Assembly (NCBI RefSeq): GCF_002278925.1
Contig: NZ_NCJH01000022.1
Span: forward strand, 1 to 52,567
Direction of reading: 5' to 3'
Source: Polaromonas sp. 39-63-25
GTDB taxonomy: Bacteria > Pseudomonadota > Gammaproteobacteria > Burkholderiales > Burkholderiaceae_C
DNA length: 52,567 bases
This document shows, piece after piece, positions 7,993 to 47,082 of this stretch. Position numbers and translations under genes: made by a program. How positions within the stretch are numbered: the first letter of the stretch is position 1; each line of letters starts with the position of its first letter. The notes under the pieces are model-generated. The model did not search any database and was not told where the DNA came from. It worked only from the letters and a program-made list of their open reading frames with translations.

Positions 7993-8982
7993 CTACTTCG
8001 CCAGTAAAAGCAACGGTGGTGGCGACTCCTGCCCCGCTGGTGCCTGGTCCAGCAGTCCCTGCTCGAACCGGGCCTGAAGCGTCGCGCCTGAAACATCCAG
8101 GTAGCGCATGGCCGATTTGACATCCTTCCAGCCGACGTATTCCATCAGTTCCTTGATGTCCCAGCCGCTGGCGCGGGCCCAGCCGGCAAAGCCGCGGCGC
8201 ATGGAGTGGCTGCTGTATTCCTCGGGCGACTCGACGCCGGCTTCGGCGAACAGGCTGCGCAGCAAGGGGATCAGGCTGTTGGCGTGCAGGCTTTCGTCTG
8301 CGACATGGCCCCAGCGATCGATTTTTCGGAACACCGGGCCCTCGCTCAAACTAGCCAGGTCGACCCAGGCATTGAAGGCCGTCACGGGACACAGACGAGA
8401 CAGAGCCGGGCATTTGAAGACCCGGCCCTGCAACTGCCTGTCGCCTTTGCTGCGGCCCAGATAGCAGGCCATGCCTTGGCCGGGGGTGACCTCGGTGTTC
8501 TCAACGCGCAGGTTGACCAGTTCGTCGGAGCGGAAGCCGCGCCAAAACCCCAGGAGCATCAGGCTGCGGTCGCGCGTGTGGCGCAGCAAGGCCGGCTGGT
8601 CGCCGGAGCGCCGGGCATTGCTGATGGCGGCATCGAGCCATTGATCGACCTGCTGAAGGACCGCCACCTCCAGCGGTCGTGCGCGCTTTTCTGGCACGGC
8701 GTGAACGGAGCGAATACCTTTTAGGACCTGGCGCACCAAGGCTGCCTTGGTGGGATCGGGAAAGCCTTGGTCGGTATGCCAGCGAGACAGCGCCGCCAGC
8801 CGCTGGCGCAAGGTGTTGATGGTCAGGGTCGCCGCGTGGTCGGCCAGGTAGCGGGAAATGGCGTCAGCCGTCGACGGCAGCAGGCCTTTCCATTCGATTT
8901 CAAAATGACGGATGGCAGAAGCGTAGCTTCGGCGCGTGTTGTCGCGCTCGGCAGCCTCAAGATACTGGGCAAGACGGCTCAT
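7993..8982 (-). CDS. tyrosine recombinase / integrase
   Basis: This site-specific recombinase is 329 residues long. The N-terminal SAM-like core-binding domain covers about residues 1-105. The catalytic domain shows the family residues: Arg in WRGFRSDELVNL, Lys in LGRSKGDRQ, His-x-x-Arg in SSHSMRRGFAGWARAS, Trp in place of the second His in YVGWKDVKSAM, and the nucleophile Tyr in AMRYLDVSG. The length and residues fit XerC/D-like integrases of mobile elements. No tRNA or att core was found beside it. It could mobilise the surrounding island or be a leftover of another element. Confidence 0.88.
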   Translation of the reverse strand: MSRLAQYLEAAERDNTRRSYASAIRHFEIEWKGLLPSTADAISRYLADHAATLTINTLRQRLAALSRWHTDQGFPDPTKAALVRQVLKGIRSVHAVPEKRARPLEVAVLQQVDQWLDAAISNARRSGDQPALLRHTRDRSLMLLGFWRGFRSDELVNLRVENTEVTPGQGMACYLGRSKGDRQLQGRVFKCPALSRLCPVTAFNAWVDLASLSEGPVFRKIDRWGHVADESLHANSLIPLLRSLFAEAGVESPEEYSSHSMRRGFAGWARASGWDIKELMEYVGWKDVKSAMRYLDVSGATLQARFEQGLLDQAPAGQESPPPLLLLAK

Positions 8983-33288: not shown

Positions 33289-33537
33289 CCACCGGAGAGG
33301 GTTTTACGGGTTGTGACAGATTCCCGCTGCGTGGTGGCCAAGGTTGGCCGGAACGTTTTTCGATCGTAAGGTCATCGATGGATCCGAGCTTGTCGCCGTT
33401 ATTCGTTGACCACCTTGCTGAGGTTGACCACTCATAGACCCAGGTTTTCCGCCAGCCATTTTTTACCAACTCGATCCGTCCCTATGGGGAACTCTCGTTG
33501 AACTTTGCTGATTGGATCAGGCTACCTGTCAACCCTC

Positions 33538-33585
33538 ATGGTGGGCATCAGGAAAATGCGCATGGCTGTGCGCAATGCGACTGTG
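33538..33585. repeat. 48-bp copy of the 3' end of the His-tail transporter gene
   Basis: This matches 20346-20393 at about 44 of 48 positions in the same orientation (both contain GCGCATGGCTGTGCGCAAT). At 20.3 kb it encodes, on the minus strand, the end of the His-rich tail of the EamA transporter. Here it is a loose fragment joined to an ATPase remnant. Confidence 0.65.
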
Positions 33586-33587
33586 GA

Positions 33588-33704
33588 TCCGCGACCATGT
33601 GGATGGCGGTCTTTGCCGATATGGGTGCAAGCCTGCTGGTTGTCGGCAATGGCCTTCGTTTGCTGCGCGGTGCGAAAAATTCCGCCACCACTCCCAAAAC
33701 ATAA
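33588..33704 (+). pseudogene. 3' remnant of a Pb/Cd/Zn P-type ATPase gene
   Basis: The frame reads SATMWMAVFADMGASLLVVG then NGLRLLRGAKN and stops at 33702-33704. It is nearly the same as the C-terminus of the PbrA-like ATPase at 43984-47082 (ATMWMAVFADMGASLLVVFN). About 38 residues remain, covering only the last membrane span. It is evidence of a second ATPase gene lost by deletion or recombination. Confidence 0.7.
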
Positions 33705-34071
33705 ATCTACAGGATGAACCAGCCCACCATTCCAGCCATGCGTGAAACTATTCTGGCCACCCTCAAATTAGCGACGTTGGTCGCTTGACCTGCGCCGCAA
33801 ATGACTTTGGGTGTGAACACGTTTTCTCAAGATACCTGGATGCACACGACCGACCGGGAGACTGATAGCTGGCTATTAGCACAAGCGGCAAATGCACCAA
33901 TGTCGTTAGTGCTGCCGTCGCGGCTATGGAACGAAGTCTGACCGTGATTGCATTAACGAGCCAAGAGATGTCGCAGCCCGCTGGAGTTGATTGAGCGGCT
34001 TTTTCCAGAAAACTATACCGTAATGACCACACCTGCAAGTCCCTGAAACATTTGCCTTGTACACTCTCATC
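33705..34071. other. non-coding gap before czcI
   Basis: I see no supported gene or clear promoter here. Open frames on the minus strand (for example 33763-34203) lack family features and overlap czcI. Confidence 0.4.
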
Positions 34072-34422
34072 GTGCGCCGTTATCTGATCATTTTCTTCAT
34101 CGTATTTCTGCCGCTCCAGTTCGCCTGGGGCGCTGCGGCAAGGTATTGCGTGCACGAAAATATCGACAAGACGAGCCATTTTGGTCATCACGCACACGTG
34201 CATACGGTTTCAATACCCGAGAGTGCCTTGACGGGTGCGTTGGGCGGGACGGACGACCCGGATTGCAACTACTGCCACATAGGATGCGCTCAGCCGCTTC
34301 CCGGGAATGCCTTGAGTGTTCCTGTTGCGTCGCCAGCGGTTTTCGAACCACCCGATCCCTTGCCGACCCAGTTCAGGGTGCCGGACGTCATCGAACGACC
34401 TAATTGGACCCTCGCCGCTTAG
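34072..34422 (+). CDS. czcI: CzcI-like small periplasmic protein
   Basis: The 116 residues start at GTG 34072 (MRRYLIIFFIVFLPLQFAWG, a signal peptide). The mature part contains YCVHENIDKTSHFGHHAHVH, a His-rich stretch, and CNYCHIGCAQP, then a Pro-rich end. This matches CzcI, a small protein upstream of czcC in czc operons, thought to influence their expression. A TTG at 34057 would lengthen it by 5 residues. It is followed by a large hairpin and then czcC. Confidence 0.78.
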   Translation: MRRYLIIFFIVFLPLQFAWGAAARYCVHENIDKTSHFGHHAHVHTVSIPESALTGALGGTDDPDCNYCHIGCAQPLPGNALSVPVASPAVFEPPDPLPTQFRVPDVIERPNWTLAA

Positions 34423-34517: not shown

Positions 34518-35804
34518 ATGCGACCGAAAACGCTGGCGCTTGCCTGCACACTGTTTTTTTTATCGGTACCTGCCTTTGCGCAGGCACCCAGCCCTGCAGA
34601 GGTTAGTACGCCCAAGCTCGCGCCGCTGACACTGCAGGAGGCCTTAGTACGGGCTGCCCAGGCCAATCCCGCATTGCGGGCAAAGCAGGCGGAGCTCGCG
34701 GCAGCAGAAGGTTTCAATAGCGATGCGAGATCACTGCTATTCAACAACCCTCAGCTCGCCATTGACAAGACGCGACGGCTCGTGCCCCAAGCGGGCATGA
34801 ATCCTGAACGTCGCAACGAGTGGACTGGCGGAGTCTCCCAGACTTTTGAAACGGGGGGTCAGGGAGGCTTCAGGCGCGAGACCGCCTCGTCTGCGCTGGA
34901 TGCGTTGCGTTACGAGATTGTCGATGCGCAGCGGCAAATTCGAAGTGATATCTCCACGCGCTTTTACAGGGTGCTGGCACTTCAGCAACGTGTTGAGCTG
35001 GAAAGCCAGGCGCTCAAATTATTCGATGATGCCGCCGCCGCTGTACAAAAGCGACGTACCGCGGGCGAGGACACCAAGCTTGATGCCAATGTTGCGCTCG
35101 TGGAGGCCGAGCGCGCGCGTAATCAGCTTGCTCTGGCGCGGGAACAGCTTAACGAAGAGCGTAACGATTTGGCGGCGCGCCTGCAGCTTGTGGGCCCGGC
35201 GCTGCCGCTGGCTCAGGGCGAACTGATGCCAGCGCCTATTGGGTTTGTATTGAACGATCTGCTTGGCAGTCTCGACGCACAGCCGCGTCTTCTTGCTTTT
35301 TCAGCCCGTGAAAAAAGCGCAAACGCAAGATACCGCCTGGAACGTGCAAGTGTAAGTCCCGACGTGACGGTGGGATTGAATGTAGGCCGTGAAGGTCCAG
35401 GCAGCGCACGCGAAAGGCTCACCACTATTTCCGTTTCGATCCCATTGCCGCTTTTTAAACGCAATGCCACTGGCATTGGTCAAGCGTCTACCGCTGCAAC
35501 CCAAGCGCAAATTGATAGGGAGGCCGCGCAGCGCGACATCAAAGCCAATATCTTGTCGCTTTGGACAAGGCTGACAAGCCAAGAGCAACGCGTGCGTCGG
35601 CTTCAGGACGTCGTCTTGCCGGCGCTGACCGACAACCTAAGTCTTTCTGTCAAATCCCGCCAGGCGGGGCAGATCGGTTTGCTTGAACTAATCGTCGTCA
35701 ACCGCCAAGCACTCGATGCGCGCCGTGACTTGATCGAGGCCCTTACCGAATACCACAGTACCCGTGCCGCGATTGAGTTCGAAGCGGGTTGGTCCAAAGA
35801 ATGA
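34518..35804 (+). CDS. czcC: outer-membrane factor CzcC-like
   Basis: This outer-membrane channel belongs to a divalent-cation RND system. The 428 residues have a signal peptide ending near PAFAQAPS and two TolC-type repeats (for example LTLQEALVRAAQANPALRAK and ISVSIPLPLFKRNATGIGQA). It shows little likeness to the CusC of this window beyond the fold. AGGAG precedes ATG 34518. czcB follows after 10 bases. Confidence 0.88.
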   Translation: MRPKTLALACTLFFLSVPAFAQAPSPAEVSTPKLAPLTLQEALVRAAQANPALRAKQAELAAAEGFNSDARSLLFNNPQLAIDKTRRLVPQAGMNPERRNEWTGGVSQTFETGGQGGFRRETASSALDALRYEIVDAQRQIRSDISTRFYRVLALQQRVELESQALKLFDDAAAAVQKRRTAGEDTKLDANVALVEAERARNQLALAREQLNEERNDLAARLQLVGPALPLAQGELMPAPIGFVLNDLLGSLDAQPRLLAFSAREKSANARYRLERASVSPDVTVGLNVGREGPGSARERLTTISVSIPLPLFKRNATGIGQASTAATQAQIDREAAQRDIKANILSLWTRLTSQEQRVRRLQDVVLPALTDNLSLSVKSRQAGQIGLLELIVVNRQALDARRDLIEALTEYHSTRAAIEFEAGWSKE

Positions 35805-35814
35805 GAGATTCATC

Positions 35815-37002
35815 ATGAACAACACAAAATTCAAATTTTCCACGTCACGCCGTGTCGTCGGTATTTCATCCGTTCTTGCGATATTGCTTATGCTGGGTGG
35901 TTGTGGAGACAAGTCTGCAAAGGGTGTGGAACCAGCCAAGCAGGAGGCCAAGGCAGAATCCGGCAAAGAAGAAAAAGGCCTGAAACTAACGGCAGAGGAA
36001 CAGGAACGGGCTGGGATCAAGCTTGAAGAAGTGAGCTCACGTACTTTCGAAGACTCGGTAAGCGTCACAGCGACCATTCGCCCCAATCAAGATCGAATTG
36101 CCAAGATTTCACCCCGGGTGGAGGGCCGGATCGTTAGCGTGTCCGCCAATCTGGGTGACACGGTTCGCGCGGGGCAGGCCCTGGCTGTTATGGACAGTCT
36201 GGCAATTGGCGAAGCGCAATCGACTCTGCTGCGTGCGCAGTCTTCCGAACGTGTTGCACAGGCTGACTTCAAGCGTGCCGAGTCACTTAGCGCAGAGGAA
36301 ATCATTCCACAGAAGGAGTTGCTCAGGGCGCGTGGTGAACTGGAACGGGCCAGTGCGGAATCACGGGCGGCGCGTGACCGATTGCGCCTGCTTGGAGGAT
36401 CCGCCAGTGCTAGCGGACACGCACAATCCACCTTTGCGTTAACGTCGCCGTTTGCCGGCACAGTCATCCAGAAAAAGGCCACGATCGGTGAACTGGGATC
36501 CCCTTCGGATGCCATTTTTACCATCGCAGATTTATCCAAGGTTTGGATTGAGGCAAATCTCACCGACCAGTTGGTCTCGAAAGTCAAGACAGGTGCGGCG
36601 GCGATAGTGACGGTGGGGGCCTATCCTGGCGAGCACTTTAACGGCCGGGTTGCTTATATTGCCAACGTACTGGACAAGGATAGCCGCACCATAGCAGCAC
36701 GCATCGAAGTGCCTAACAAGGACGGTCGGCTCAAGCCTGAAATGTTCGCCAGCGCCAGCATTGCAACCGGAGGGCAACTAGAAGCCATCTCGGTCCCGGA
36801 CACCGCAATAGTTTTGCTTCAAGGTCAACCGACTGTTTTCGTAAATGAGCAGGGTAGCTTTGAGTCTCGTGCAGTAGAGACAGGAGAAAAATTGGGGGGG
36901 CGTACGGTGATCACATCCGGCCTCAAGACGAAAGAACAGGTGGTGGCAACTGGCGCCTATGCGCTCAAAGCTCGCCTGTTGAAATCGCAAATCGGTGGAT
37001 AA
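35815..37002 (+). CDS. czcB: periplasmic adaptor CzcB-like (lipoprotein)
   Basis: The membrane-fusion protein has 395 residues from ATG 35815. A basic N-terminus and hydrophobic segment end in LMLGGCGDKS, a lipobox, so it is anchored by lipid. A Lys/Glu-rich stretch (EPAKQEAKAESGKEEKG) leads to the barrel, lipoyl and hairpin regions (ISPRVEGRIVSVSANLGDTV; SPFAGTVIQKKATIGELGSP). There is no CusF-like tail, unlike the CusB here. It links CzcA to CzcC. Confidence 0.88.
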   Translation: MNNTKFKFSTSRRVVGISSVLAILLMLGGCGDKSAKGVEPAKQEAKAESGKEEKGLKLTAEEQERAGIKLEEVSSRTFEDSVSVTATIRPNQDRIAKISPRVEGRIVSVSANLGDTVRAGQALAVMDSLAIGEAQSTLLRAQSSERVAQADFKRAESLSAEEIIPQKELLRARGELERASAESRAARDRLRLLGGSASASGHAQSTFALTSPFAGTVIQKKATIGELGSPSDAIFTIADLSKVWIEANLTDQLVSKVKTGAAAIVTVGAYPGEHFNGRVAYIANVLDKDSRTIAARIEVPNKDGRLKPEMFASASIATGGQLEAISVPDTAIVLLQGQPTVFVNEQGSFESRAVETGEKLGGRTVITSGLKTKEQVVATGAYALKARLLKSQIGG

Positions 37003-37019
37003 GGCAAGGAACCATCATC

Positions 37020-40000
37020 ATGCTCAATGCCATTGTCGATGCTTCGCTGCGTTACAAAGTTCTGGTTCTTGTCGCTTTTGCCGTAATTGTCGGCCTGGGT
37101 GTTCAAGCCTTTCGCACCGTACCGGTAGATGCCTTTCCAGACGTCACGCCCATTCAGGTCAACGTATACACAGAATCGCCTGGTCTTGCCGCCGAAGATG
37201 TCGAAAGGCTGCTGACCACGCCTATTGAGGGGGCCATGGCGGGATTGCCTGGGGTCGAAGAGGTTCGCTCGATTTCGTTGTTTGGTCTGTCTTACGTTGG
37301 TGTCTACTTTAAGGACAACGTTGACATTTACTTTGCACGCCGACTTGTGGGTGAGAAGCTGCAGGAAGCCAAAGGTCGCCTACCGCAAGGCTATGGGGAG
37401 CCCGTGCTGGGGCCCAACAGCTCAGGCTTGGGGCAAGTGTTCTGGTACACCATTGAATCGGCCGATAAAAAGCTGAGCATCATGGATTTGCGCACGCTGC
37501 ACGACTGGACGGTTCGCTTGATCATGCGTACTGCGCCCGGCGTGGACGACGTTATTTCTTTCGGTGGAGATCAGAAACAATTTCAGGTGCAGATCGATCC
37601 AAACAAGTTGATCAAGTATGGGCTGACCTTCAAGCAGGTCATGGAACGACTTGCTGCTAACAATAAGCAGGTAGGCGGGCAATCAATCAACTTGGGCCCC
37701 GAACAATATTTGGTTAGAGGGCTGGGCCTCGTGACGGGGTCGGCCGACATTGCGAGTATCGTTGTTGCTGAGCGAAACGGTGCGCCTATTTTTGTTCGCG
37801 ATGTCGCGGAGGTCAAGGAAGCCGCCACCCCGCGTTTCGGTGCCGTCACCCGCGACGGGAAGGAGGCCGTTCTTGGTATTGCCTTGTCGCGAGTCAATGA
37901 AAATGCGAAGAGTGTCGTAGACGCAGTGAAGGCCAAGATGGCCCTTGCGCAGGCGGCGTTGCCAAAAGGTGTGTCGCTGGTCCCCGTCTACGACCGTACC
38001 GATCTGGTCGAAAAAGCATTGAAGACGGCTGAAAGCTCCCTGGTGGAAGGCGCAATATTGGTCGCCATTATTTTGTTTTTGTTTTTGGGAGATTTTCGTT
38101 CGGCCATCGTCGTCATTGTGACCTTGCCGATGGCCATGCTGATTGCATTCATCCTCATGCAGCAGTTTGGGGTAACGGCCAACCTGATGTCGCTGGCGGG
38201 ATTGGCTATTGGCACGGGAATGATGGTTGACGGCGCCATAGTGATGGTCGAAAACGCATTCCGGCTATTGGCTCATGCCAAGGAGTCTGGCAAGCCCATC
38301 AAAAAGACGCATCTGATTTTGGAAGCGGCGCGAGAGGTGATGAACCCCATCGCATTCGCCATCCTGATCATCATTGTCGTCTTCATGCCTCTTTTTTCCC
38401 TAACGGGCCTGGAGGGAAAACTTTTCAAGCCCATGGCCTTCACTATTACTTTTGCGATGGCCGGCTCCTTGTTGCTGTCAATGACGCTGGTGCCTGTCCT
38501 GGCCGCGCTGATTCTCAAGCCGAAGGAAGAGAAAGATACGTTCGTCGTACGTTGGGCCAAAAAGTCCTACCTGCCCTTGCTCGACTGGGCGCTTGAACGA
38601 AAGAAGCTCGTTATCTCCATTGCGTTGGCACTGCTTGTGGCATCTCTGGCACTGTTCCCATTTCTGGGCAAGGAATTCATGCCACAACTGCAGGAGGGAA
38701 CCATTCTTTTGCGCGTGACCGGCATTCCATCGGCTTCGCTCGATGAATCTATCAGGGTCTCGAATGTCATTAGCGTTGAACTGAAGAAACAGTTTCCGCA
38801 AGTCGACTCGGTGCTCTCAACGATTGGGCGCGCGGAGGGAGGCGAGACCACCGACGTGAATTCCATGGAGGTACTTGTGGCGACCAAGAATCAGTCCGAG
38901 TGGCCGGAAAAAATCTCGTACCCAACGCTTGCCCATGAGATGCAGGAGGCCTTGGAAAAAGTTATTCCCACGGCTGTTATCGCTGCGACACAGCCCATTC
39001 AGTCGCGTGTTGAAGAATTGATATCAGGTGTCAGAGCGACTCTCGCTCTTAAGCTTTACGGCCCCGACCTGGCGACGCTGGATCGGCTTACCGCGCAGTT
39101 GCAAGGGGTGCTGGGCGAAGTGTCCGGGGTGGCCGATTTGTCAGCCGAGGCCAATAAGGGAAAGCCTCAGTTGGTAATCAAAGTCAATCGCGAAGCGGCC
39201 GCCCGTTATGGCATCAATGCTGATGAAATTCTGGAGATTGTCAAAGCAGGCATCGGGGGGGAAGCGGTTTCCACGCTGATTGATGGAACCAAACGGTTTG
39301 ATATTTCGGTTCGGCTTTCTGATGGCTTCCGCGCTGACCCGGCATCGATTGCGGCAATTCCTATCCGCACCACTGGCGGCGCACTGGTTCCGTTCTCGCA
39401 GGTAGCGGCGATTGAGCTGGACGAGGGGTATTCGTTTGTTCGCCGGGAGTCTTTGCAGCGATATTCAGTTCTTCAGATGGACGTCAAGGGCCGTGACGTT
39501 GACAGCTTTGTGAAGGAGGCTGACGCCAAGATTGCAGAGCAGGTCAAATTGCCGACAGGCTACTACTACCAGTGGGGCGGTGCGTTTGAGAACCAGCAGC
39601 GCGCCATGGCTCGCCTGGCTGTGATCGTGCCTTTGACCATCGGGCTGATCTTCATGTTGCTGTATACGGCATTTAATTCCGTAAGGCATGCGACGCTCAT
39701 CATTGCGAACGTTCCGTTTGCCATCATTGGCGGGATAGTCGGACTGTTTATCACAGGGCAATACCTGTCGGTTCCTTCTGCTATTGGCTTCATCGCTGTC
39801 TTCGGGGTGGCCATGCTCAACGGCATTGTGATGGTGACATTCCTAAATGATCAGCGCGGGCAAGGTCTGTCTATTAGGGATGCCGTGCGTCGGGGGGCAG
39901 AACTACGCTTGAGACCAGTCTTGATGACCGCTTCCGTGGCCATTTTGGGTCTCGTCCCAATGCTTCTGTCTACAGGCGTCGGCGCAGAAACTCAGCGGCC

Positions 40001-40142
40001 ACTTGCAACCGTAGTGGTAGGGGGCCTCTTTACTTCGACCGCATTGACTTTACTGTTGCTGCCACTCTTCTATGAGTGGGCCGAACTGCGCGCTGAGCGT
40101 CGTAGCCAAAACCAATCCGAAAATGAGGAAGGCACATCATGA
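37020..40142 (+). CDS. czcA: heavy-metal RND pump CzcA-like
   Basis: The 1,040-residue inner-membrane proton/cation antiporter has 12 spans. The key fourth-span segment is MSLAGLAIGTGMMVDGAIVM followed by VENA (about 390-414). It has the DGA and EN residues of divalent-cation pumps but AIGTG rather than the DFG of classic Zn/Co/Cd CzcA, so the substrate (Zn, Cd, Co, Ni) is not certain. Its stop overlaps the next start as ATGA, so the PII-like protein is co-translated. Confidence 0.9.
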   Translation: MLNAIVDASLRYKVLVLVAFAVIVGLGVQAFRTVPVDAFPDVTPIQVNVYTESPGLAAEDVERLLTTPIEGAMAGLPGVEEVRSISLFGLSYVGVYFKDNVDIYFARRLVGEKLQEAKGRLPQGYGEPVLGPNSSGLGQVFWYTIESADKKLSIMDLRTLHDWTVRLIMRTAPGVDDVISFGGDQKQFQVQIDPNKLIKYGLTFKQVMERLAANNKQVGGQSINLGPEQYLVRGLGLVTGSADIASIVVAERNGAPIFVRDVAEVKEAATPRFGAVTRDGKEAVLGIALSRVNENAKSVVDAVKAKMALAQAALPKGVSLVPVYDRTDLVEKALKTAESSLVEGAILVAIILFLFLGDFRSAIVVIVTLPMAMLIAFILMQQFGVTANLMSLAGLAIGTGMMVDGAIVMVENAFRLLAHAKESGKPIKKTHLILEAAREVMNPIAFAILIIIVVFMPLFSLTGLEGKLFKPMAFTITFAMAGSLLLSMTLVPVLAALILKPKEEKDTFVVRWAKKSYLPLLDWALERKKLVISIALALLVASLALFPFLGKEFMPQLQEGTILLRVTGIPSASLDESIRVSNVISVELKKQFPQVDSVLSTIGRAEGGETTDVNSMEVLVATKNQSEWPEKISYPTLAHEMQEALEKVIPTAVIAATQPIQSRVEELISGVRATLALKLYGPDLATLDRLTAQLQGVLGEVSGVADLSAEANKGKPQLVIKVNREAAARYGINADEILEIVKAGIGGEAVSTLIDGTKRFDISVRLSDGFRADPASIAAIPIRTTGGALVPFSQVAAIELDEGYSFVRRESLQRYSVLQMDVKGRDVDSFVKEADAKIAEQVKLPTGYYYQWGGAFENQQRAMARLAVIVPLTIGLIFMLLYTAFNSVRHATLIIANVPFAIIGGIVGLFITGQYLSVPSAIGFIAVFGVAMLNGIVMVTFLNDQRGQGLSIRDAVRRGAELRLRPVLMTASVAILGLVPMLLSTGVGAETQRPLATVVVGGLFTSTALTLLLLPLFYEWAELRAERRSQNQSENEEGTS

Positions 40143-40474
40143 AAGAAATCAAGGCATACATACACAGCAATCGAGTAGCCGAGGTCATCAGCGCACTCAA
40201 AAGTTCAGTTGCGTGGACGAGCGTTGGAGACGACGAACACAACTTGACAGCTTATATGGTCAAGGGTTCGTTGGTTCCCCTAGACGAGGGCGAACGACGT
40301 TTCTCGGTCGAGCTTGGAGATGAAGTCATCAATGAATACAAGCTTGAGCTTCATTGTTCGGAAGACCATGTCGATGAGTTGGTAAAAATCATCGTTGCTT
40401 CCGCTCGAACAGGACGCCCCAATTCTGGTTGGGTGTACGTCATGGACGTGGTGTCAGCAGTTCCCGTCGTCTGA
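40139..40474 (+). CDS. PII-like protein coupled to CzcA (PII-NG type)
   Basis: The 111 residues have a ferredoxin-like, PII-type layout: EIKAYIHSNRVAEVISALKS at the N-terminus, a middle region in place of the T-loop, and VDELVKIIVASARTGRPNSG then WVYVMDVVSA at the C-terminus. The last part resembles the GDG.IFV...ARTG block of GlnB/GlnK, but the uridylylated Tyr loop is not evident. The PII-NG subgroup is known to sit beside heavy-metal RND genes with no settled role. Overlap with czcA implies equimolar synthesis, so it may sense a ligand and regulate the pump. Confidence 0.75.
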   Translation: MKEIKAYIHSNRVAEVISALKSSVAWTSVGDDEHNLTAYMVKGSLVPLDEGERRFSVELGDEVINEYKLELHCSEDHVDELVKIIVASARTGRPNSGWVYVMDVVSAVPVV

Positions 40475-40499
40475 GCGTTCACCAGAAAATCAATGGGCT

Positions 40500-40898
40500 A
40501 TGACGCAAATGGACGTTGCTAACGAGCTTCTCTATGCCTTCCGGGTCTTCCTGGCAGCCGTGCTCGGGGGAATCAACGGCTGGGAGCGCGAACGAAGTGA
40601 TAGTGATGCAGGCATAAGGACTTACATGGCGACCTCTATTGGTGCATGTGCCTTCAGCCTCATATCGACCCATGGCGGAGGCGATCCGCCCCGAATCGCG
40701 GCGCAGGTCGTCTCTGGCATTGGGTTTATCGGTGCCGGGGTGATTTTCAAAGGGAAAACAGGAAATCCTGGCCTCACTACTGCAGCAACGCTTTGGGCTA
40801 CAGCAGCAGTCGGAATGGCGAGCGCATTCGGTATGTATGTATTGGCAGTTCTCTGCTGCGGGGCAATTTACAGAAAAGCGTGCAGGGCGGGAGAGTAA
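40500..40898 (+). CDS. MgtC/SapB-family membrane protein (short)
   Basis: The 132 residues start at ATG 40500 (or 40509). Four hydrophobic spans carry the MgtC signature: FLAAVLGGINGWERERSDSD, AGIRTYMATSIGACAFSLIS, GFIGAGVIFKGKTG and LTTAATLWATAAVGMASAFG. It is the membrane domain only; the C-terminal cytoplasmic domain of longer MgtC proteins is absent. MgtC proteins help survival in low magnesium and influence the F-type ATP synthase, but the role in a metal operon is unknown. Confidence 0.85.
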   Translation: MTQMDVANELLYAFRVFLAAVLGGINGWERERSDSDAGIRTYMATSIGACAFSLISTHGGGDPPRIAAQVVSGIGFIGAGVIFKGKTGNPGLTTAATLWATAAVGMASAFGMYVLAVLCCGAIYRKACRAGE

Positions 40899-40965
40899 TG
40901 GACAAGTCCCGCCCAGCGACCACGACTAATTTTGAGCAGATTGAGTTAACTTTTAGGAGAAGCGT

Positions 40966-41277
40966 ATGAGCTTTCTTGGCAAATTATTCTCAAATATGAG
41001 CGGAAGCCATCATGGCGGGAACCGTGGCGGTCACGGAGGCGGCAGGCATGGATACCGAGAGGACGAGTATCGCAATCCACCGCCACCGCCCGTGCCGGCA
41101 CCACCGTCTGGAGGTGGGGGCGTAGCGTGTTCATCGTGCTCAGGACTCAACGTGCCTGGAGCACGATTTTGCAGTCAGTGCGGCAAATCAATGATGCCAG
41201 GAAGCTGCATGACATGTAACGCAAGCATTACGGCGGGCGCAAAGTTCTGCCCCAACTGCGGAAAACCACAGTCGTAA
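40966..41277 (+). CDS. double zinc-ribbon protein with His/Gly-rich N-terminus
   Basis: The 103 residues have no signal peptide. The N-terminal third is rich in Gly, His and Arg (SHHGGNRGGHGGGRHGYRED). A Pro run follows (PPPPPVPAPP). Two CxxC zinc ribbons finish the chain: CSSCSGLNVPGARFCSQCGK and SCMTCNASITAGAKFCPNCG. AGGAGAAG lies just before the ATG. It is probably cytoplasmic and metal-binding; the activity is unknown. It sits between the MgtC-like gene and the CDF exporter. Confidence 0.8.
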   Translation: MSFLGKLFSNMSGSHHGGNRGGHGGGRHGYREDEYRNPPPPPVPAPPSGGGGVACSSCSGLNVPGARFCSQCGKSMMPGSCMTCNASITAGAKFCPNCGKPQS

Positions 41278-41328
41278 ATTGCCATTGGCTGAGGTTTCGC
41301 TAACGACCGTTTTTAGAAGGACTTATAT

Positions 41329-42273
41329 ATGAGCGAAGGTCATTCACATGCCGTCCCGGAGAACAAAAAGGAAACCACATTGTGGATAGCTTTTGGTTTG
41401 ACTTCCACTTTTTTAATCGCAGAGGCGGTAGCCGGGGTTTTGCTAAACAGCTTGGCTCTTCTCGCCGACGCCGCTCATATGTTTACGGACGCTGCGGCAT
41501 TGGGAATCGCCTTGGTAGCCATGCGCGTGGCGAGGCGTCCCGCAGATGCACGCCGCAGCTTTGGCTATTACAGATTTGAAATTCTCGCTGCCACCTTCAA
41601 TGCCTTGCTGCTCTTTGCAGTGGCCATCTATATTCTTTATGAAGCGTACCAGCGCTTTCGAAGCCCAACGGATGTTCAGACCACCGGAATGATTGTGGTA
41701 GCCACACTGGGACTCATCATCAACATCATTAGTATAAAAATGCTTAGCGGGGGCAAGGACTCCAGCCTGAATATCAAAGGCGCATACTTGGAAGTCTGGA
41801 GCGACATGCTCGGCTCTATCGGTGTGATTGCCGCAGCTCTGATCATTCGTTTCACCGGCTGGGCATGGGTTGACACCGTGATTGCCGTAGGAATCGGCTT
41901 GTGGGTGTTGCCGCGAACTTGGATACTGCTCAAAGAGAGTCTCAATATTCTTTTGGAAGGCACGCCCAAAGGACTGGATCTCGATGACTTGAAGAGATCA
42001 ATGCTTGCAGTCAACGGCGTAACCGGTGTGCATGACATTCACATATGGGTTCTCACCAGTGGAAAAAACAGCCTGACAGCGCATATCGTGCATTCTCCTG
42101 AAGTTCCGGCCGGCAAGGTAATTAAGGCGTTAAAAACCGTCGTTGCTACGCGCTTTGACGTGTTTCACACCACTTTTCAGTGCGAACTTGTGGGGTGCGC
42201 TCATACGGAGGACGGCTGCAACTTCACCGCGTATGAGCCGCCGCCAAGAGAAAATCCGCAACCAGCTGTTTAG
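41329..42273 (+). CDS. czcD: CDF cation exporter CzcD-like
   Basis: This inner-membrane Zn/Cd/Co exporter has 314 residues. The six-span core contains LADAAHMFTDAAALGIALVA (HxxxD site in span 2) and YLEVWSDMLGSIGVIAAALI (the matching site in span 5). The C-terminal cytoplasmic domain includes GVHDIHIWVLTSGKNSLTAH. The N-terminus has a short His stretch (SEGHSHAVPE) and the C-terminus ends GCAHTEDGCNF plus a Pro-rich tail. Confidence 0.92.
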   Translation: MSEGHSHAVPENKKETTLWIAFGLTSTFLIAEAVAGVLLNSLALLADAAHMFTDAAALGIALVAMRVARRPADARRSFGYYRFEILAATFNALLLFAVAIYILYEAYQRFRSPTDVQTTGMIVVATLGLIINIISIKMLSGGKDSSLNIKGAYLEVWSDMLGSIGVIAAALIIRFTGWAWVDTVIAVGIGLWVLPRTWILLKESLNILLEGTPKGLDLDDLKRSMLAVNGVTGVHDIHIWVLTSGKNSLTAHIVHSPEVPAGKVIKALKTVVATRFDVFHTTFQCELVGCAHTEDGCNFTAYEPPPRENPQPAV

Positions 42274-42635
42274 CTTCGTCGGATTCTCCGAGTTTTCAAT
42301 TGACTACAAATGGACGACGGCTTTCTATTCCCCGCCTGCCATATCCGGTTCAGAATCCGCGCGAGCGTTCCTGGGCGCGTCGTTCGTCAGCGCTCATGGA
42401 CAAGTTTGGCTTTGCAGTGACTTCGTGGGAAAGCTTATCCGCCCTACGGCCTGGGACTTGGCTGGAGTCGCTGGCAAAGGCCGTGAGACTAAGATTGACG
42501 CCGCTGGCGCACCTGACGGGACGCATACCGCCCCCCAACGCTGGCACCGGCCGCATGGGTTGCTCGATAGCACCAGCTGGCCACCGGAACTGGATCGCGG
42601 AACCCTAGAACGTATGTAAACAGATAAGGATGTGC
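42274..42635. other. gap between czcD and nadE
   Basis: No gene is supported. A frame from TTG 42300 (ending 42608) is open for 102 residues (SALMDKFGFAVTSWESLSAL), but it has no ribosome site and no family I recognise. Two other frames are open in parts. Confidence 0.4.
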
Positions 42636-43457
42636 ATGGCAGCCACTGTCGACCAAGTCCGTATCGCCGCAGAGCTGGGCGTGGCGCGCCATTTCGACGC
42701 GGCCGCTGAAATCGCCCGTCGCACTGCCTTTGTTGCAGGGTACGTTCGATCCGCCGCAGCGCACACCCTGGTGCTTGGTATCAGCGGCGGCGTCGATTCC
42801 ACGGTGACCGGCCGGCTGTGCCAGCTGGCCGCCGAGCAGCTGCGCAGCGAGGGTCTGCAGGTGCGCTTCATCGCCATGCGGCTCCCCTATGGTATCCAGG
42901 CCGATGAAGCGGACGCGCAACGCGCGATAACCTTCATCGATCCGGACGAGAACTTAAGCGTCGATGTCAAGCCAGCTTCGGATGCTGCCCTGGCGGCGCT
43001 GCATGCGGGGGGACTGCGCTACACGGATGCGTTCCAAGAGGATTTCGTATTGGGCAACATTAAGGCCCGACAGCGCATGATCGCCCAATACGCTGTGGCC
43101 GGGGCGACCGGAGGCCTGGTGGTAGGGACAGACCACGCCGCGGAAGCCTTGATGGGCTTCTTCACCAAGTTTGGCGACGGTGGCTACGATATTGCGCCTC
43201 TATTCGGATTGACCAAGCGTCAGGTCAGGGCCATTGCATCGGCTCTGGGCGCCGATGCAGGCCTTGCGGGGAAAATTCCCACTGCGGACTTGGAAACCCT
43301 TCGACCTCAACGTCCCGATGAAGCAGCCTTGGGAGTCAGTTACGAGGTCATCGATGACTTTCTGGAAGGCCTGCCAGTTGACTTGGGGCCCTCTCAGCTG
43401 ATCGCGACAACTTTCCGCCGCACAGCGCACAAGCGCGCGTTACCCGCTGCACCGTAG
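42636..43457 (+). CDS. nadE: NAD synthetase NadE (ammonia-dependent type)
   Basis: It makes NAD from deamido-NAD with ATP and ammonia. From ATG 42636 (AGGA at 42627-42630) it has 273 residues, near the 275 of E. coli NadE. The PP-loop LVLGISGGVDSTVTGRL is at about residues 47-63. VVGTDHAAEALMGFFTKFGD and IAPLFGLTKRQVRAIASALG are further hallmarks. No glutaminase domain is present. It lies alone between czcD and the convergent pbrR; the reason for a housekeeping enzyme here is unclear. Confidence 0.93.
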   Translation: MAATVDQVRIAAELGVARHFDAAAEIARRTAFVAGYVRSAAAHTLVLGISGGVDSTVTGRLCQLAAEQLRSEGLQVRFIAMRLPYGIQADEADAQRAITFIDPDENLSVDVKPASDAALAALHAGGLRYTDAFQEDFVLGNIKARQRMIAQYAVAGATGGLVVGTDHAAEALMGFFTKFGDGGYDIAPLFGLTKRQVRAIASALGADAGLAGKIPTADLETLRPQRPDEAALGVSYEVIDDFLEGLPVDLGPSQLIATTFRRTAHKRALPAAP

Positions 43458-43910: not shown

Positions 43911-43943
43911 TTGACTCTATAGCAACTTTAGGTTGCTTAATAT
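43911..43943 (+). promoter_or_regulatory. PbrR-type promoter/operator of pbrA
   Basis: The -35 TTGACT (43911-43916) is followed after about 20 bp by an AT-rich -10 candidate, TTAATA (43937-43942). Between them CTATAGCAACTTTAGG resembles the imperfect dyad of PbrR/ZntR-type operators. The long spacer fits MerR-family activation. Confidence 0.75.
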
Positions 43944-43983
43944 CAAATCTACTAGAAACCCCGCCTCACAAACAGGAATCCCC

Positions 43984-46900
43984 ATGAGTCAAACGGCAAC
44001 TTCATCCTGCGGATGCAGTACATCGTCGAAGTCCGACACGGCTACTTATTACATCGACAACATGGACTGCAAAAACGAGGAGGCGATGATCCGCAAGAGC
44101 CTGGGCGCGCTTGACGGTGTGAGCGCCCTGGCATTCGACCTTAAACAACGGACGCTGGCGATTACGCACACCTTGCCCTCTCTCAGCGCCGTTGAAGATG
44201 CCTTGCGGAGCATCGGCATGCGACCGCAGAGGCGAGCCGCTGGCCTGACCAAGACGCTCTACAGCATCGAGAACATGGACTGCCCAAGCGAAGAGGCTTT
44301 GATTCGCTCCCACCTCGGAAAACTTGACGGCATAGAAGCGCTCGAATTCGATCTCAACCAACGCACGCTCGTGGTGACCCATGATGAGCAAGCCCGCTCC
44401 AAAATGGAATCGGTGTTGGCTGCCATCGGTATGAAGGCCAAGGCTCAGGCCGACGGCGCTCCATCCTCTGACGACCGAGTGGTGTTTCAGATTGACAACA
44501 TGGATTCCCGCTCTGAAGAAGCCATGATCCGGGAGCGTTTGGGGCAGCTGGACGGCGTAAAAACACTGGAATTTGACCTCCCGGAACGCAAGCTGGCCGT
44601 GACCTTGAACGCTGCAGCACCGGCGTCGATGGAGGCCGCTTTGGCGTCGATCGGCATGCGCGCCAAGCGGGCGGAGTCCGTGCAAGCACAGGTTGCCCCT
44701 GCTGTGACGGTAGCGCCTGACCGCGCGCCGGTGGCCCAGGCCGCCAAGGCCGGCAATGGGGTCACAGTCAGCTACCGTATCGAAAACATGGACTGCCCCA
44801 CCGAGGAGGCCTTGATTCGTGATCGCCTGGGCAAGGTCAGCGGCGTTGCCAAGCTCGAGTTCAACCTGATGCAACGCGTGCTGACTGTTGACCACACCCT
44901 CCCTTCCTCCGAACCCATAGAGCAGGCTCTGGCCGCGATCGGCATGAAGGCGCAGCGCCAAGGTGCGGCCGGCGGCACCACGACAGTACTGCAGATCGCC
45001 AAGATGGATTGCCCGACCGAAGAAGGACTCATCCGAGGCAAGTTGGAGGGCATGACAGGGATCGCCGGCTTGCAGTTCAATCTGATGCAGCGCACCTTGA
45101 CGGTCCAGCATTCACCTGAGGCCATTGCCCAAGCCGTCAAAGCCATCGAGTCGCTGGGATATGAGACGGTGGTGCAAACCACGGATGAACCACGTGATGC
45201 GTACTCGCCGGCGCCGAAGACCAACTGGCTGCCGATGATTTTTTCTGGGGTGGCGGCTGTACTGGCCGAAGTCGTCTACTGGGCCAACGGCGGCAACCAC
45301 TGGGTGGTGGTCGCGCTCGCTCTGGTGTCCATCGCCACCGGCGGGCTCAGCACCTACAAAAAGGGCTGGATTGCGCTGAAAAATCTCAACCTGAACATGA
45401 ACGCGCTCATGTCCATTGCGGTGACCGGCGCCATGGCAATCGGACACTGGCCCGAAGCAGCGATGGTAATGTTCCTGTTCGCGCTGGCGGAGGTGATCGA
45501 AGCCAAGTCACTGGACCGCGCCCGCAATGCGATCCGCGGCCTCATGGAGCTGACACCGGCCACCGCCACCGTCCGCCAGGCCGACGGCGCCTGGTTGGAA
45601 GTGCCGGCCAAGGAGGTTGCCCTGCAGGCTGTGGTACGGGTCAAGCCCGGAGAGCGCATTGCCTTGGACGGCATCATCGCCTCGGGCAGTTCCGCGATCA
45701 ACCAGGCCCCCATCACTGGTGAGAGCCTGCCAGTCGAGAAAGCCGAGGGCGACCAGGTCTTTGCCGGCACCATCAATGAGACTGGCTCCTTCGAGTACAA
45801 GGTTACCGCTGCCGCCAATAACTCGACGCTGGCACGCATCATCCACGCCGTCGAGTCGGCCCAAGGTAGCCGCGCGCCGACCCAGCGTTTCGTCGACCAA
45901 TTCGCCAAGGTCTACACACCCGCCGTTTTCGCGGTGGCGCTGCTGGTGGCGGTGGTCCCGCCCTTGGCCATGGACGGACTCTGGCTTGACTGGATCTACA
46001 AGGCGCTTGTGCTGCTGGTGATCGCCTGTCCCTGCGCCCTGGTCATTTCCACCCCGGTCACCATCGTCAGCGGCCTAGCCGCCGCAGCGCGGCGCGGCAT
46101 CCTGATCAAGGGCGGTGTTTACCTGGAGGGGGGGCGCAAGCTCAAGGTGTTGGCCCTGGACAAGACAGGAACCCTGACCCACGGCAAGCCCGAGCAGACC
46201 GATTTCGTTACGCTGAGCGGCGACCAGCCAATGGTGCAGCGCTGGGCGGCCAGCCTGGCCGCGCGCTCGGACCATCCCGTGTCCCAGGCCATTGCCAGGC
46301 ATGCCAAGCAAGCCGCAACGCAGGCCCTGGAGGTGCAAGACTTCAAGGCGCTGCCCGGGCGGGGCGTCAGCGGGCAGATCGCAGGCACTTTGCTACACCT
46401 GGGCAACCATCGACTGACCCAGGAGCGCGGCTTGAGCACGCCAGCGTTGCAGTCGACGCTGGAGGGATTGGAGCGCCAAGGCAAGACAGCGGTCATGCTG
46501 ATGAACGAGTCGGTGGTGCTGGGGATTTTTGCCGTGGCGGACACGGTCAAGGACAGCAGCAAGAAGGCTATCGCGGACCTTCACGCCATGGGCGTGCGCA
46601 CCGTGATGCTGACCGGCGACAACCAGCACACAGCCAACGCGATCGCCGCCCAGGTCGGCATCGATGAGGCCCGGGGTGACCAGCTTCCCGAGGACAAGCT
46701 GCGCACCATTGAAGGCCTGGCGGGCGGCCAGGGCCAGGTCGGCATGGTCGGCGACGGCATCAACGATTCGCCGGCGCTGGCGCGCGCAGACATCGGTTTC
46801 GCCATGGGCGCCGCCGGCACCGACACCGCCATCGAGACGGCCGACGTCGCCCTGATGGATGACGACCTGCGCAAGATCCCCGCGTTCATCCGGCTCTCGC

Positions 46901-47082
46901 AGAAGACCGCGCAGGTGCTCACGCAGAACATCGTCTTGGCTCTGGGGATCAAGGTGGTCTTTGTGGCGTTGACATTCACTGGTCAAGCCACCATGTGGAT
47001 GGCGGTATTTGCCGACATGGGAGCGAGTCTGCTGGTCGTCTTCAACGGCTTGCGCTTGCTGGGAAAGAAAGATGCAGCGTGA
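43984..47082 (+). CDS. pbrA: Pb/Cd/Zn-translocating P1B-type ATPase with five N-terminal HMA domains
   Basis: This exports Pb(II), Cd(II) or Zn(II) from the cytoplasm. From ATG 43984 (AGGAA upstream) it has 1,032 residues, unusually long. A Cys/Ser head (SSCGCSTSSK) leads to five HMA-like domains, with motif Cys at 29, 100, 271 and 343 (NMDCPSEE type). The third repeat has Ser175 in NMDSRSEE. The pump core follows: TGES, CPCALVIS, DKTGTLTHG, SDHPVSQ and GDGINDSPAL. MDC..EE motifs with CPC fit the divalent P1B group. An ATG further upstream (43933) overlaps the promoter and is not used. Confidence 0.93.
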   Translation: MSQTATSSCGCSTSSKSDTATYYIDNMDCKNEEAMIRKSLGALDGVSALAFDLKQRTLAITHTLPSLSAVEDALRSIGMRPQRRAAGLTKTLYSIENMDCPSEEALIRSHLGKLDGIEALEFDLNQRTLVVTHDEQARSKMESVLAAIGMKAKAQADGAPSSDDRVVFQIDNMDSRSEEAMIRERLGQLDGVKTLEFDLPERKLAVTLNAAAPASMEAALASIGMRAKRAESVQAQVAPAVTVAPDRAPVAQAAKAGNGVTVSYRIENMDCPTEEALIRDRLGKVSGVAKLEFNLMQRVLTVDHTLPSSEPIEQALAAIGMKAQRQGAAGGTTTVLQIAKMDCPTEEGLIRGKLEGMTGIAGLQFNLMQRTLTVQHSPEAIAQAVKAIESLGYETVVQTTDEPRDAYSPAPKTNWLPMIFSGVAAVLAEVVYWANGGNHWVVVALALVSIATGGLSTYKKGWIALKNLNLNMNALMSIAVTGAMAIGHWPEAAMVMFLFALAEVIEAKSLDRARNAIRGLMELTPATATVRQADGAWLEVPAKEVALQAVVRVKPGERIALDGIIASGSSAINQAPITGESLPVEKAEGDQVFAGTINETGSFEYKVTAAANNSTLARIIHAVESAQGSRAPTQRFVDQFAKVYTPAVFAVALLVAVVPPLAMDGLWLDWIYKALVLLVIACPCALVISTPVTIVSGLAAAARRGILIKGGVYLEGGRKLKVLALDKTGTLTHGKPEQTDFVTLSGDQPMVQRWAASLAARSDHPVSQAIARHAKQAATQALEVQDFKALPGRGVSGQIAGTLLHLGNHRLTQERGLSTPALQSTLEGLERQGKTAVMLMNESVVLGIFAVADTVKDSSKKAIADLHAMGVRTVMLTGDNQHTANAIAAQVGIDEARGDQLPEDKLRTIEGLAGGQGQVGMVGDGINDSPALARADIGFAMGAAGTDTAIETADVALMDDDLRKIPAFIRLSQKTAQVLTQNIVLALGIKVVFVALTFTGQATMWMAVFADMGASLLVVFNGLRLLGKKDAA

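Follow-up and report, generated by a model that had tools for sequence, protein, structure and literature searches.

The window analysed here is a contig of 52,567 nucleotides (NZ_NCJH01000022.1), one of the 54 contigs in the 4.83 Mb genome assembly GCF_002278925.1 of Polaromonas sp. 39-63-25. Between a czcA-labelled pump gene and a czcD-like exporter gene it carries three small genes, for a PII-like protein, an MgtC-like membrane protein and a double zinc-ribbon protein (block at 40139-42273, exporter gene included). Here a PII-like gene of the PII-NG type overlaps and pairs with the gene of an AIG-type pump of the heavy-metal efflux resistance-nodulation-division (HME-RND) family, and an exporter-associated zinc-ribbon gene precedes the gene of a cation diffusion facilitator (CDF). 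Our leading reading, held tentatively, is that the block forms an accessory tail to an operon for heavy-metal efflux of the czc type (czcI-C-B-A ... czcD), with a PII-NG protein as partner of the pump and the zinc ribbon as a cytosolic metal-binding protein. Two of the genes are recurrent companions of metal exporters and the third has probably been inactivated here, so we regard the block as one more version of the metal-resistance operons already known and not as a new three-gene control system.

The PII-like gene (40139-40474, forward strand; Pfam P-II, E 3.9e-6) starts four bases before the stop of the pump gene (37020-40142, forward strand), as the initial annotation had it. The same arrangement recurs widely. 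The comparison set comprises the best 80 of 196 loci (L numbers) with a relative of the PII gene, and includes near-identical ones (L067-L070, L080-L082, L059/L060). When pump and PII genes are tallied over 80 loci, with L119, L121 and L020 removed and PII positions anchored by tblastn, a pump gene lies at most 240 nt upstream of the PII gene in 67 (overlaps counted), and the 4-base overlap is found in 26; in L114 the order is reversed, with the pump directly after PII. An order-level sample of 300 genomes (G numbers; at most two pump candidates scored in each) gives a strong PII-NG match (E <= 1e-15) in 14, and holds 20 pump places at 65% identity or above. PII is adjacent in 15 of these, three fall at a contig edge or on a cut match (G122, G153, G028) and for two no PII was found, so that 15 of the 17 decidable pump places carry the pair. 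Together with the 67 of 80 loci this is the czc-type efflux neighbourhood by which PII-NG proteins are recognised. Weaker PII matches adjoin pumps of about 45% identity, for instance in G001, G047 and G157, and the two genes are still paired at PII identities as low as about 30%, in metagenome-assembled genomes (MAGs) with Ignavibacteriales, Chlorobiota and Planctomycetota labels (L100, L103, L106). The two pairwise links, of PII with the pump and of the zinc ribbon with exporters, are solid.

The pump itself belongs to the CusA/CzcA family (TIGR00914, 1075 bits against a cut-off of 701), and to that extent its label stands. The signature of the fourth transmembrane helix (TM4) reported for the HME1 and HME2 subtypes, DFGX3DGAX3VEN (quoted from part of PMC3637150), is not what is found: the translation reads AIGTGMMVDGAIVMVEN, an AIG-type motif. 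CzcA of plasmid pMOL30 from Cupriavidus metallidurans CH34 is 42% identical and reads DFGIIIDGAVVIVEN, which is DFG-type. Judging from the sequence, "CzcA" is here a family-level name and the protein is not a classical CzcA; the substrate of the pump cannot be told from the motif type. Where the TM4 motif of a full-length pump can be read, none of the 56 pumps next to PII is DFG-type, against four of the eight that are not adjacent to it, and 47 of the 56 have A(I/V)GxGMMVDGAxV(M/L)xEN (these counts take in near-identical loci as well as L011, L020, L117, L119 and L121). PII therefore goes with HME-RND parts other than classical CzcA.

Several lines of evidence place the 111-residue PII-like protein in the PII superfamily. 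It scores 27.6 bits against PF00543 (gathering threshold 25), and a profile of 56 relatives picks up 40 PDB sequences with E <= 1e-5 (best 1.8e-21), almost every one of which bears the name PII or GlnK and none of which is recognisable by name as a PII-NG structure. An AlphaFold2 model built from those 56 sequences has a mean predicted local distance difference test score of 90.7, and the 50 PDB matches listed for it are all PII/GlnK-type chains, with TM-scores of about 0.6-0.7. The residues with which canonical PII contacts the ATP phosphates (K90, R101, R103) and 2-oxoglutarate (K58) are absent, their places being held by W98, P109, V111 and E66. Across the 56 relatives the K90 place is Trp98 in 39, Lys98 in eight and Cys98 in six; the K58 place is E66 in 40, and the R101 place is P109 in 24 and R109 in 13. 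Glu70 and Gly97 are invariant, Cys73 occurs in 55 of the 56, and His9 accompanies 32 of the 39 Trp98 sequences and all six with Cys98. Lys98 and an arginine-containing tail are kept, for example, in L106, L108, L111, L096 and L099 (MAGs labelled Planctomycetota, Desulfuromonadaceae, Deltaproteobacteria or Ignavibacteria), and the arginine tail alongside Trp98 in L098, L101, L103 and L105 (Melioribacteraceae or Chlorobiota label). Both features are lost mainly in proteobacterial sequences, including that of the window, whose closest named relatives (95% identical) are in the Polaromonas-labelled MAGs of L037 and L038. As the ends of strands 1 and 3 neighbour each other in a ferredoxin-like fold, His9 and Cys73 may lie close together.

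The zinc-ribbon gene (40966-41277, forward strand; PF12773, E 1e-10) encodes a protein that had been described as a His/Gly-rich double zinc ribbon. The ribbons and a Gly/His-rich first half are borne out, whereas "His-rich" is a generous term for three to six histidines. Members of the family share a short hydrophobic start (MGFLERMLGNLMGG-type), a stretch rich in Gly that contains these histidines, and two ribbons, whose eight cysteines are invariant in an alignment of 19. At E <= 1e-25 the order sample holds 12 ribbon places in eight of 300 genomes, eight of the 12 within 2.1 kb of PII; at 1e-15 a family-level sample of 250 genomes, which shares some genomes with the first (G000, G234 and others), holds 22 places in 18 genomes, three of them adjoining PII, out of 15 PII places. 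The number of candidates scored per genome was limited in both samples (16 and 19). Of the stretches fetched around ribbon genes, 13 of 19 from the family sample and 12 of 13 from the order sample also contain a CzcA-type, CDF or P-type exporter gene, compared with none of 20 controls (raw counts; stretches of 7-20 kb, controls of about 10.4 kb, the 20 taken from five of the same genomes). The 19 family regions come from the 22 places with two own-genome places and G234 excluded, and the 13 order regions hold 14 places, with G091, G080 and the genome's own contig C12 (pump neighbours already known), G103, G122 and weaker matches excluded. Leaving aside four PII loci known beforehand (L117, L169-L171), the order count is eight of nine. 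The regions without an exporter are L186, L187, L190, L198, L199, L204 and L181; among them L186 and L187 have CzcC- or CzcB-like matches, and L190 and L198 have a FlgB-like match, as is found near the pMOL30 ATPase gene czcP. In six regions (L188, L189, L191-L193, L196) a P-type ATPase gene comes immediately before the ribbon gene, and there is a CadR-like gene close by. In the window it is followed by the CDF exporter gene (41329-42273, forward strand), as first annotated; the product exceeds the TIGR01297 cut-off (E 8.7e-85) and is 62% identical over 302 aligned positions to the CDF protein of the pMOL30 czc locus, which makes it CzcD-like.

Some side observations concern these ribbons and their neighbours. 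A FlgB-like rod-domain gene recurs near czcP or a zinc ribbon (L185, 33684-34106; L164, L180, L190, L195, L198). In L074 the first ribbon gene after PII (8397-8741) looks decayed, its ribbon part being out of frame, and a second, intact-looking one follows MgtC. A 240-residue membrane-like protein is encoded between ribbon and MgtC in L074 (8752-9474), L063 (3728-4450), L076 (8822-9544) and L011 (329-1051); a Pfam search with the L074 copy gives nothing at E 0.01. Downstream of PII, L099-L104 (from MAGs with an Ignavibacteria, Bacteroidetes or Chlorobiota label) encode a zinc-ribbon protein of another kind, which has an apparent membrane helix and a Cys-rich part; this is possibly an independent PII/zinc-ribbon neighbourhood.

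We know of no cytosolic protein that binds and regulates an RND metal pump. PII proteins are trimers, and GlnK plugs the trimeric transporter AmtB. A trimeric CusA is described in a published abstract. A PII-NG protein, likely a trimer by homology, could act from the cytoplasmic side to adjust an RND pump that is itself trimeric; its cue would be the metal or thiol state, read through Cys73 and perhaps His9, and not ATP and 2-oxoglutarate. The zinc-ribbon protein would buffer cytosolic zinc and cadmium or hand them to CDF and P-type exporters; these would feed the periplasm, where the RND pump would take up the metal, and MgtC would be an optional extra that this strain has lost. In its most specific form, with a metal- or thiol-responsive PII-fold trimer that does not sense ATP and 2-oxoglutarate docking on the cytoplasmic face of the pump as GlnK does on AmtB, and the ribbon carrying zinc or cadmium to the CDF or P-type exporter, the scheme is an analogy that we regard as speculative and unlikely to hold as a whole. 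The proposed likeness is that of a PII-fold protein gene next to a trimeric membrane transporter gene; the transporter family differs, and the canonical ligand residues are absent from the window protein.

PII-NG could instead be a cytosolic metal sensor that tunes gene expression in a regulatory cascade and leaves the pump itself untouched. The near-invariance of Cys73 would suit such a sensor, and PMC7726332 proposes this role for GSU2134 of Geobacter sulfurreducens, whose PII-NG-czcABC operon is upregulated under Co(II). The Pfam scan found no DNA-binding family in the window's PII-like protein, and the recurrent 4-base overlap with the pump gene suggests a partner at the protein level; we consider a pure expression sensor rather improbable. 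In Geobacter, as here, a PII domain protein adjoins an HME-RND operon, but there its gene is reported to come first in the operon, whereas in the window it comes after the pump gene and overlaps it.

The MgtC/SapB gene between PII and ribbon (40500-40898, forward strand) matches PF02308 at E 2.3e-31 (109 bits), so that the MgtC domain reported earlier is real; that the protein is short is in part the result of damage. Relative to L037 and L038, 44 bases are missing near the 3' end and the frame is shifted. The last part of the protein, conserved tail included, is lost, and the old frame is still recognisable downstream of the gap. With L038 as outgroup, four amino-acid changes (including I23N, T61P and I86N) fall on the window branch in 115 codons, and one on the L037 branch. 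The deletion, the frameshift and the radical substitutions make the gene probably a pseudogene; since the overall ratio of nonsynonymous to synonymous substitution rates (dN/dS) between window and L037 is still low, at 0.079, its inactivation would be recent. Relatives hold intact-looking copies, although those in L063, L074, L057 and on contig C40 of G145 are cut or interrupted. At 1e-25 the MgtC profile matches 35 of the 300 order genomes. Surroundings were viewed for the best six places and for contig C40 of G046, met through its zinc ribbon: PII loci account for the top four (two in G145, one each in G000 and G046), P-type ATPase genes surround the fifth (G157), and the sixth (G199) has no metal genes around it. 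In the 250 family genomes, where the threshold was 1e-40, only G000 passes (scored candidates per genome limited to 13 in the order and 15 in the family sample). Nine plasmid records match MgtC at E 1e-15, one of which was looked at. The best evidence for a link of MgtC with PII comes from a single Gemmatimonadetes-labelled MAG, in two contigs of which (L084, L093) MgtC, and not a pump, overlaps PII by four bases.

The three genes are seldom found together. All three occur in one locus in eight of the 80 PII loci (L037, L038, L040, L041, L061, L063, L074, L076), four of these with the CDF gene as well, counts that are lower bounds because many of the 80 loci end soon after PII. The triple is present in three of the 300 order genomes (G000, G046, G145), with broken pieces only in G122, and in one of the 250 family genomes. 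The initial annotation had proposed such a survey and had named rarity of the combination as its own counter-evidence; on these numbers the genes do, for the most part, rarely occur together, and the three as one unit were rejected on their rarity in both samples. Gene order varies too: PII-MgtC-ribbon-CDF; PII-ribbon-MgtC-CDF (L020/L169); and PII, ribbon, the 240-residue membrane-like protein, MgtC and ribbon (L063). PII, MgtC and ribbon are mix-and-match accessory genes with no fixed module. Eight plasmid records match PII, pMOL30 not among them. A close plasmid-borne copy of the triple was rejected on the three looked at (H1, H2, H6), in none of which tblastn finds MgtC at 1e-3; H1 and H2 hold PII and CDF along with an unnamed gene and give no match to the zinc ribbon, and in H6 CDF gives no match and the zinc ribbon lies 13 kb upstream of PII.

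Such variability would suit hitchhiking on a mobile metal-resistance island, with each gene acting alone or not at all and no joint function. The wide variation in order and content, the rarity of the triple, the decay of MgtC in the window and its broken copies in L063, L074 and L057, and the plasmid-borne relatives are all consistent with it. It sits poorly with a PII-pump pairing kept to about 30% PII identity and with the exporter counts for the ribbon (13/19 and 12/13 against 0/20), and we think it an unlikely account. Least credible, and in our view very improbable, is the layer initially envisaged, in which PII senses nucleotide, MgtC acts on ATP synthase and the ribbon senses zinc so that export is coupled to energy or nucleotide status: each of the three families does accompany metal exporters, the triple recurs in eight of 80 loci and the L084/L093 overlap joins MgtC to PII, but ATP and 2-oxoglutarate residues are missing from PII of the window's group, MgtC is probably inactive here and the triple is rare. 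The association with metal export held up for PII and for the ribbon taken singly, and failed for the three as a joint layer.

The accessory-tail reading has its own difficulties, which weigh against it and are gathered here. In 13 of the 80 PII loci the position just upstream is not taken by a pump. Some of these are contig ends; L099 and L104 show no pump anywhere, the one pump in L088 is DFG-type and sits 3.5 kb downstream, and the gene before PII in L084 and L093 is MgtC. Conversely, the clade pumps of G048 and G126, together with those of G193 and G118 (58-59%), have no profile-detectable PII nearby. His9 is present in only 38 of the 56 relatives. As to the ribbon, its N-terminal part offers few histidines, neither CzcA nor CDF nor P-type genes are found in six of the 19 family regions at the threshold applied, and the profile was built from ribbons at pump loci and so favours such loci.

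"Undescribed system" was too strong a phrase for the block, since PII-NG with czc and MgtC (as CzcM) with czc are already in print. Clustering of PII-NG with czcABC is credited to Sant'Anna et al. (2009, J Mol Evol 68:322) in the relevant passage of PMC7726332, and the pMOL30 czc region opens with an MgtC gene named czcM according to passages of PMC9045368 and PMC7019866. The pMOL30 determinant (czcM, N, I, C, B, A, D, R, S, E ... flgB, czcP) shares with the window a CzcI (36%), the CDF protein (62%), an MgtC protein and a Gly/His-rich zinc ribbon. The differences are considerable. No PII gene is annotated there, its CzcA is DFG-type and only 42% identical to the window pump, and CzcM of CH34, 42% identical to the window MgtC over 98 residues, lies in another position on the opposite strand. 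The pMOL30 ribbon (RMET_RS33240), 10 kb from czcA, has the same architecture with its ribbon cysteines invariant in the alignment, and adjoins an ATPase called czcP in a passage of PMC9045368. In the open-licence literature searched, no description of the triple or of the ribbon family was found; the only printed mention of the ribbon found there is a figure legend in PMC7019866 that annotates it as "zinc ribbon domain-containing protein".

PII-NG and the zinc ribbon are recurrent, poorly understood companions of metal pumps. A PII partner of one pump subtype and an exporter-linked ribbon family that reaches the classical pMOL30 locus are two candidates for routing cytosolic metal status to the export machinery, and the PII-NG/pump pair and the ribbon family are the parts worth further work. 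For this operon, the pump label is corrected (not HME1/HME2), and MgtC is indicated as dispensable.

Upstream of the pump gene, on the same strand, lie genes for a CzcI-like small His-containing protein (34057-34422; 36% over 122 aligned positions to pMOL30 CzcI, E 2e-21), a czcC-type outer membrane factor (34518-35804; PF02321, E 3.7e-38) and a czcB-type periplasmic adaptor (35764-37002 as the listed open reading frame, the true start probably being further in; TIGR01730, E 1.2e-55). The same genome holds a second copy of the operon (L117, contig C3, 9219-15771) with czcC-B-A-PII products 87-93% identical; its zinc ribbon is 54% identical, MgtC is absent and a lipid A phosphoethanolamine transferase-like gene follows. 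Such transferase-like genes recur, mostly at metal loci (L117, L118, L039, L045, L048, L119, L120, L169, L180, L190, L198, L202). L118 is contig C53 of this genome and bears another MgtC gene. CutA has one match in the genome, on another contig. A promoter and terminator scan was uninformative, with two and nine sites against 5.2 and 11.3 expected.

Downstream of the CDF gene come an NAD synthase gene (42630-43457; NF001979, over cut-off) and a CadR/PbrR-type MerR gene on the reverse strand. In the loci that were fetched, NAD synthase occurs only as the window copy and one weak match (L031, 24%). Further downstream, P-type ATPase, PAP2 and lspA genes were named by eye from their translations. 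The ATPase (43933-47082) appears, also by eye, to have an N-terminal part with about five repeated metal-binding-like units. A short open reading frame at 33498-33704 resembles its C-terminal end (TMWMAVFADMGASLLVV..., by eye) and is a possible remnant of a second ATPase gene.

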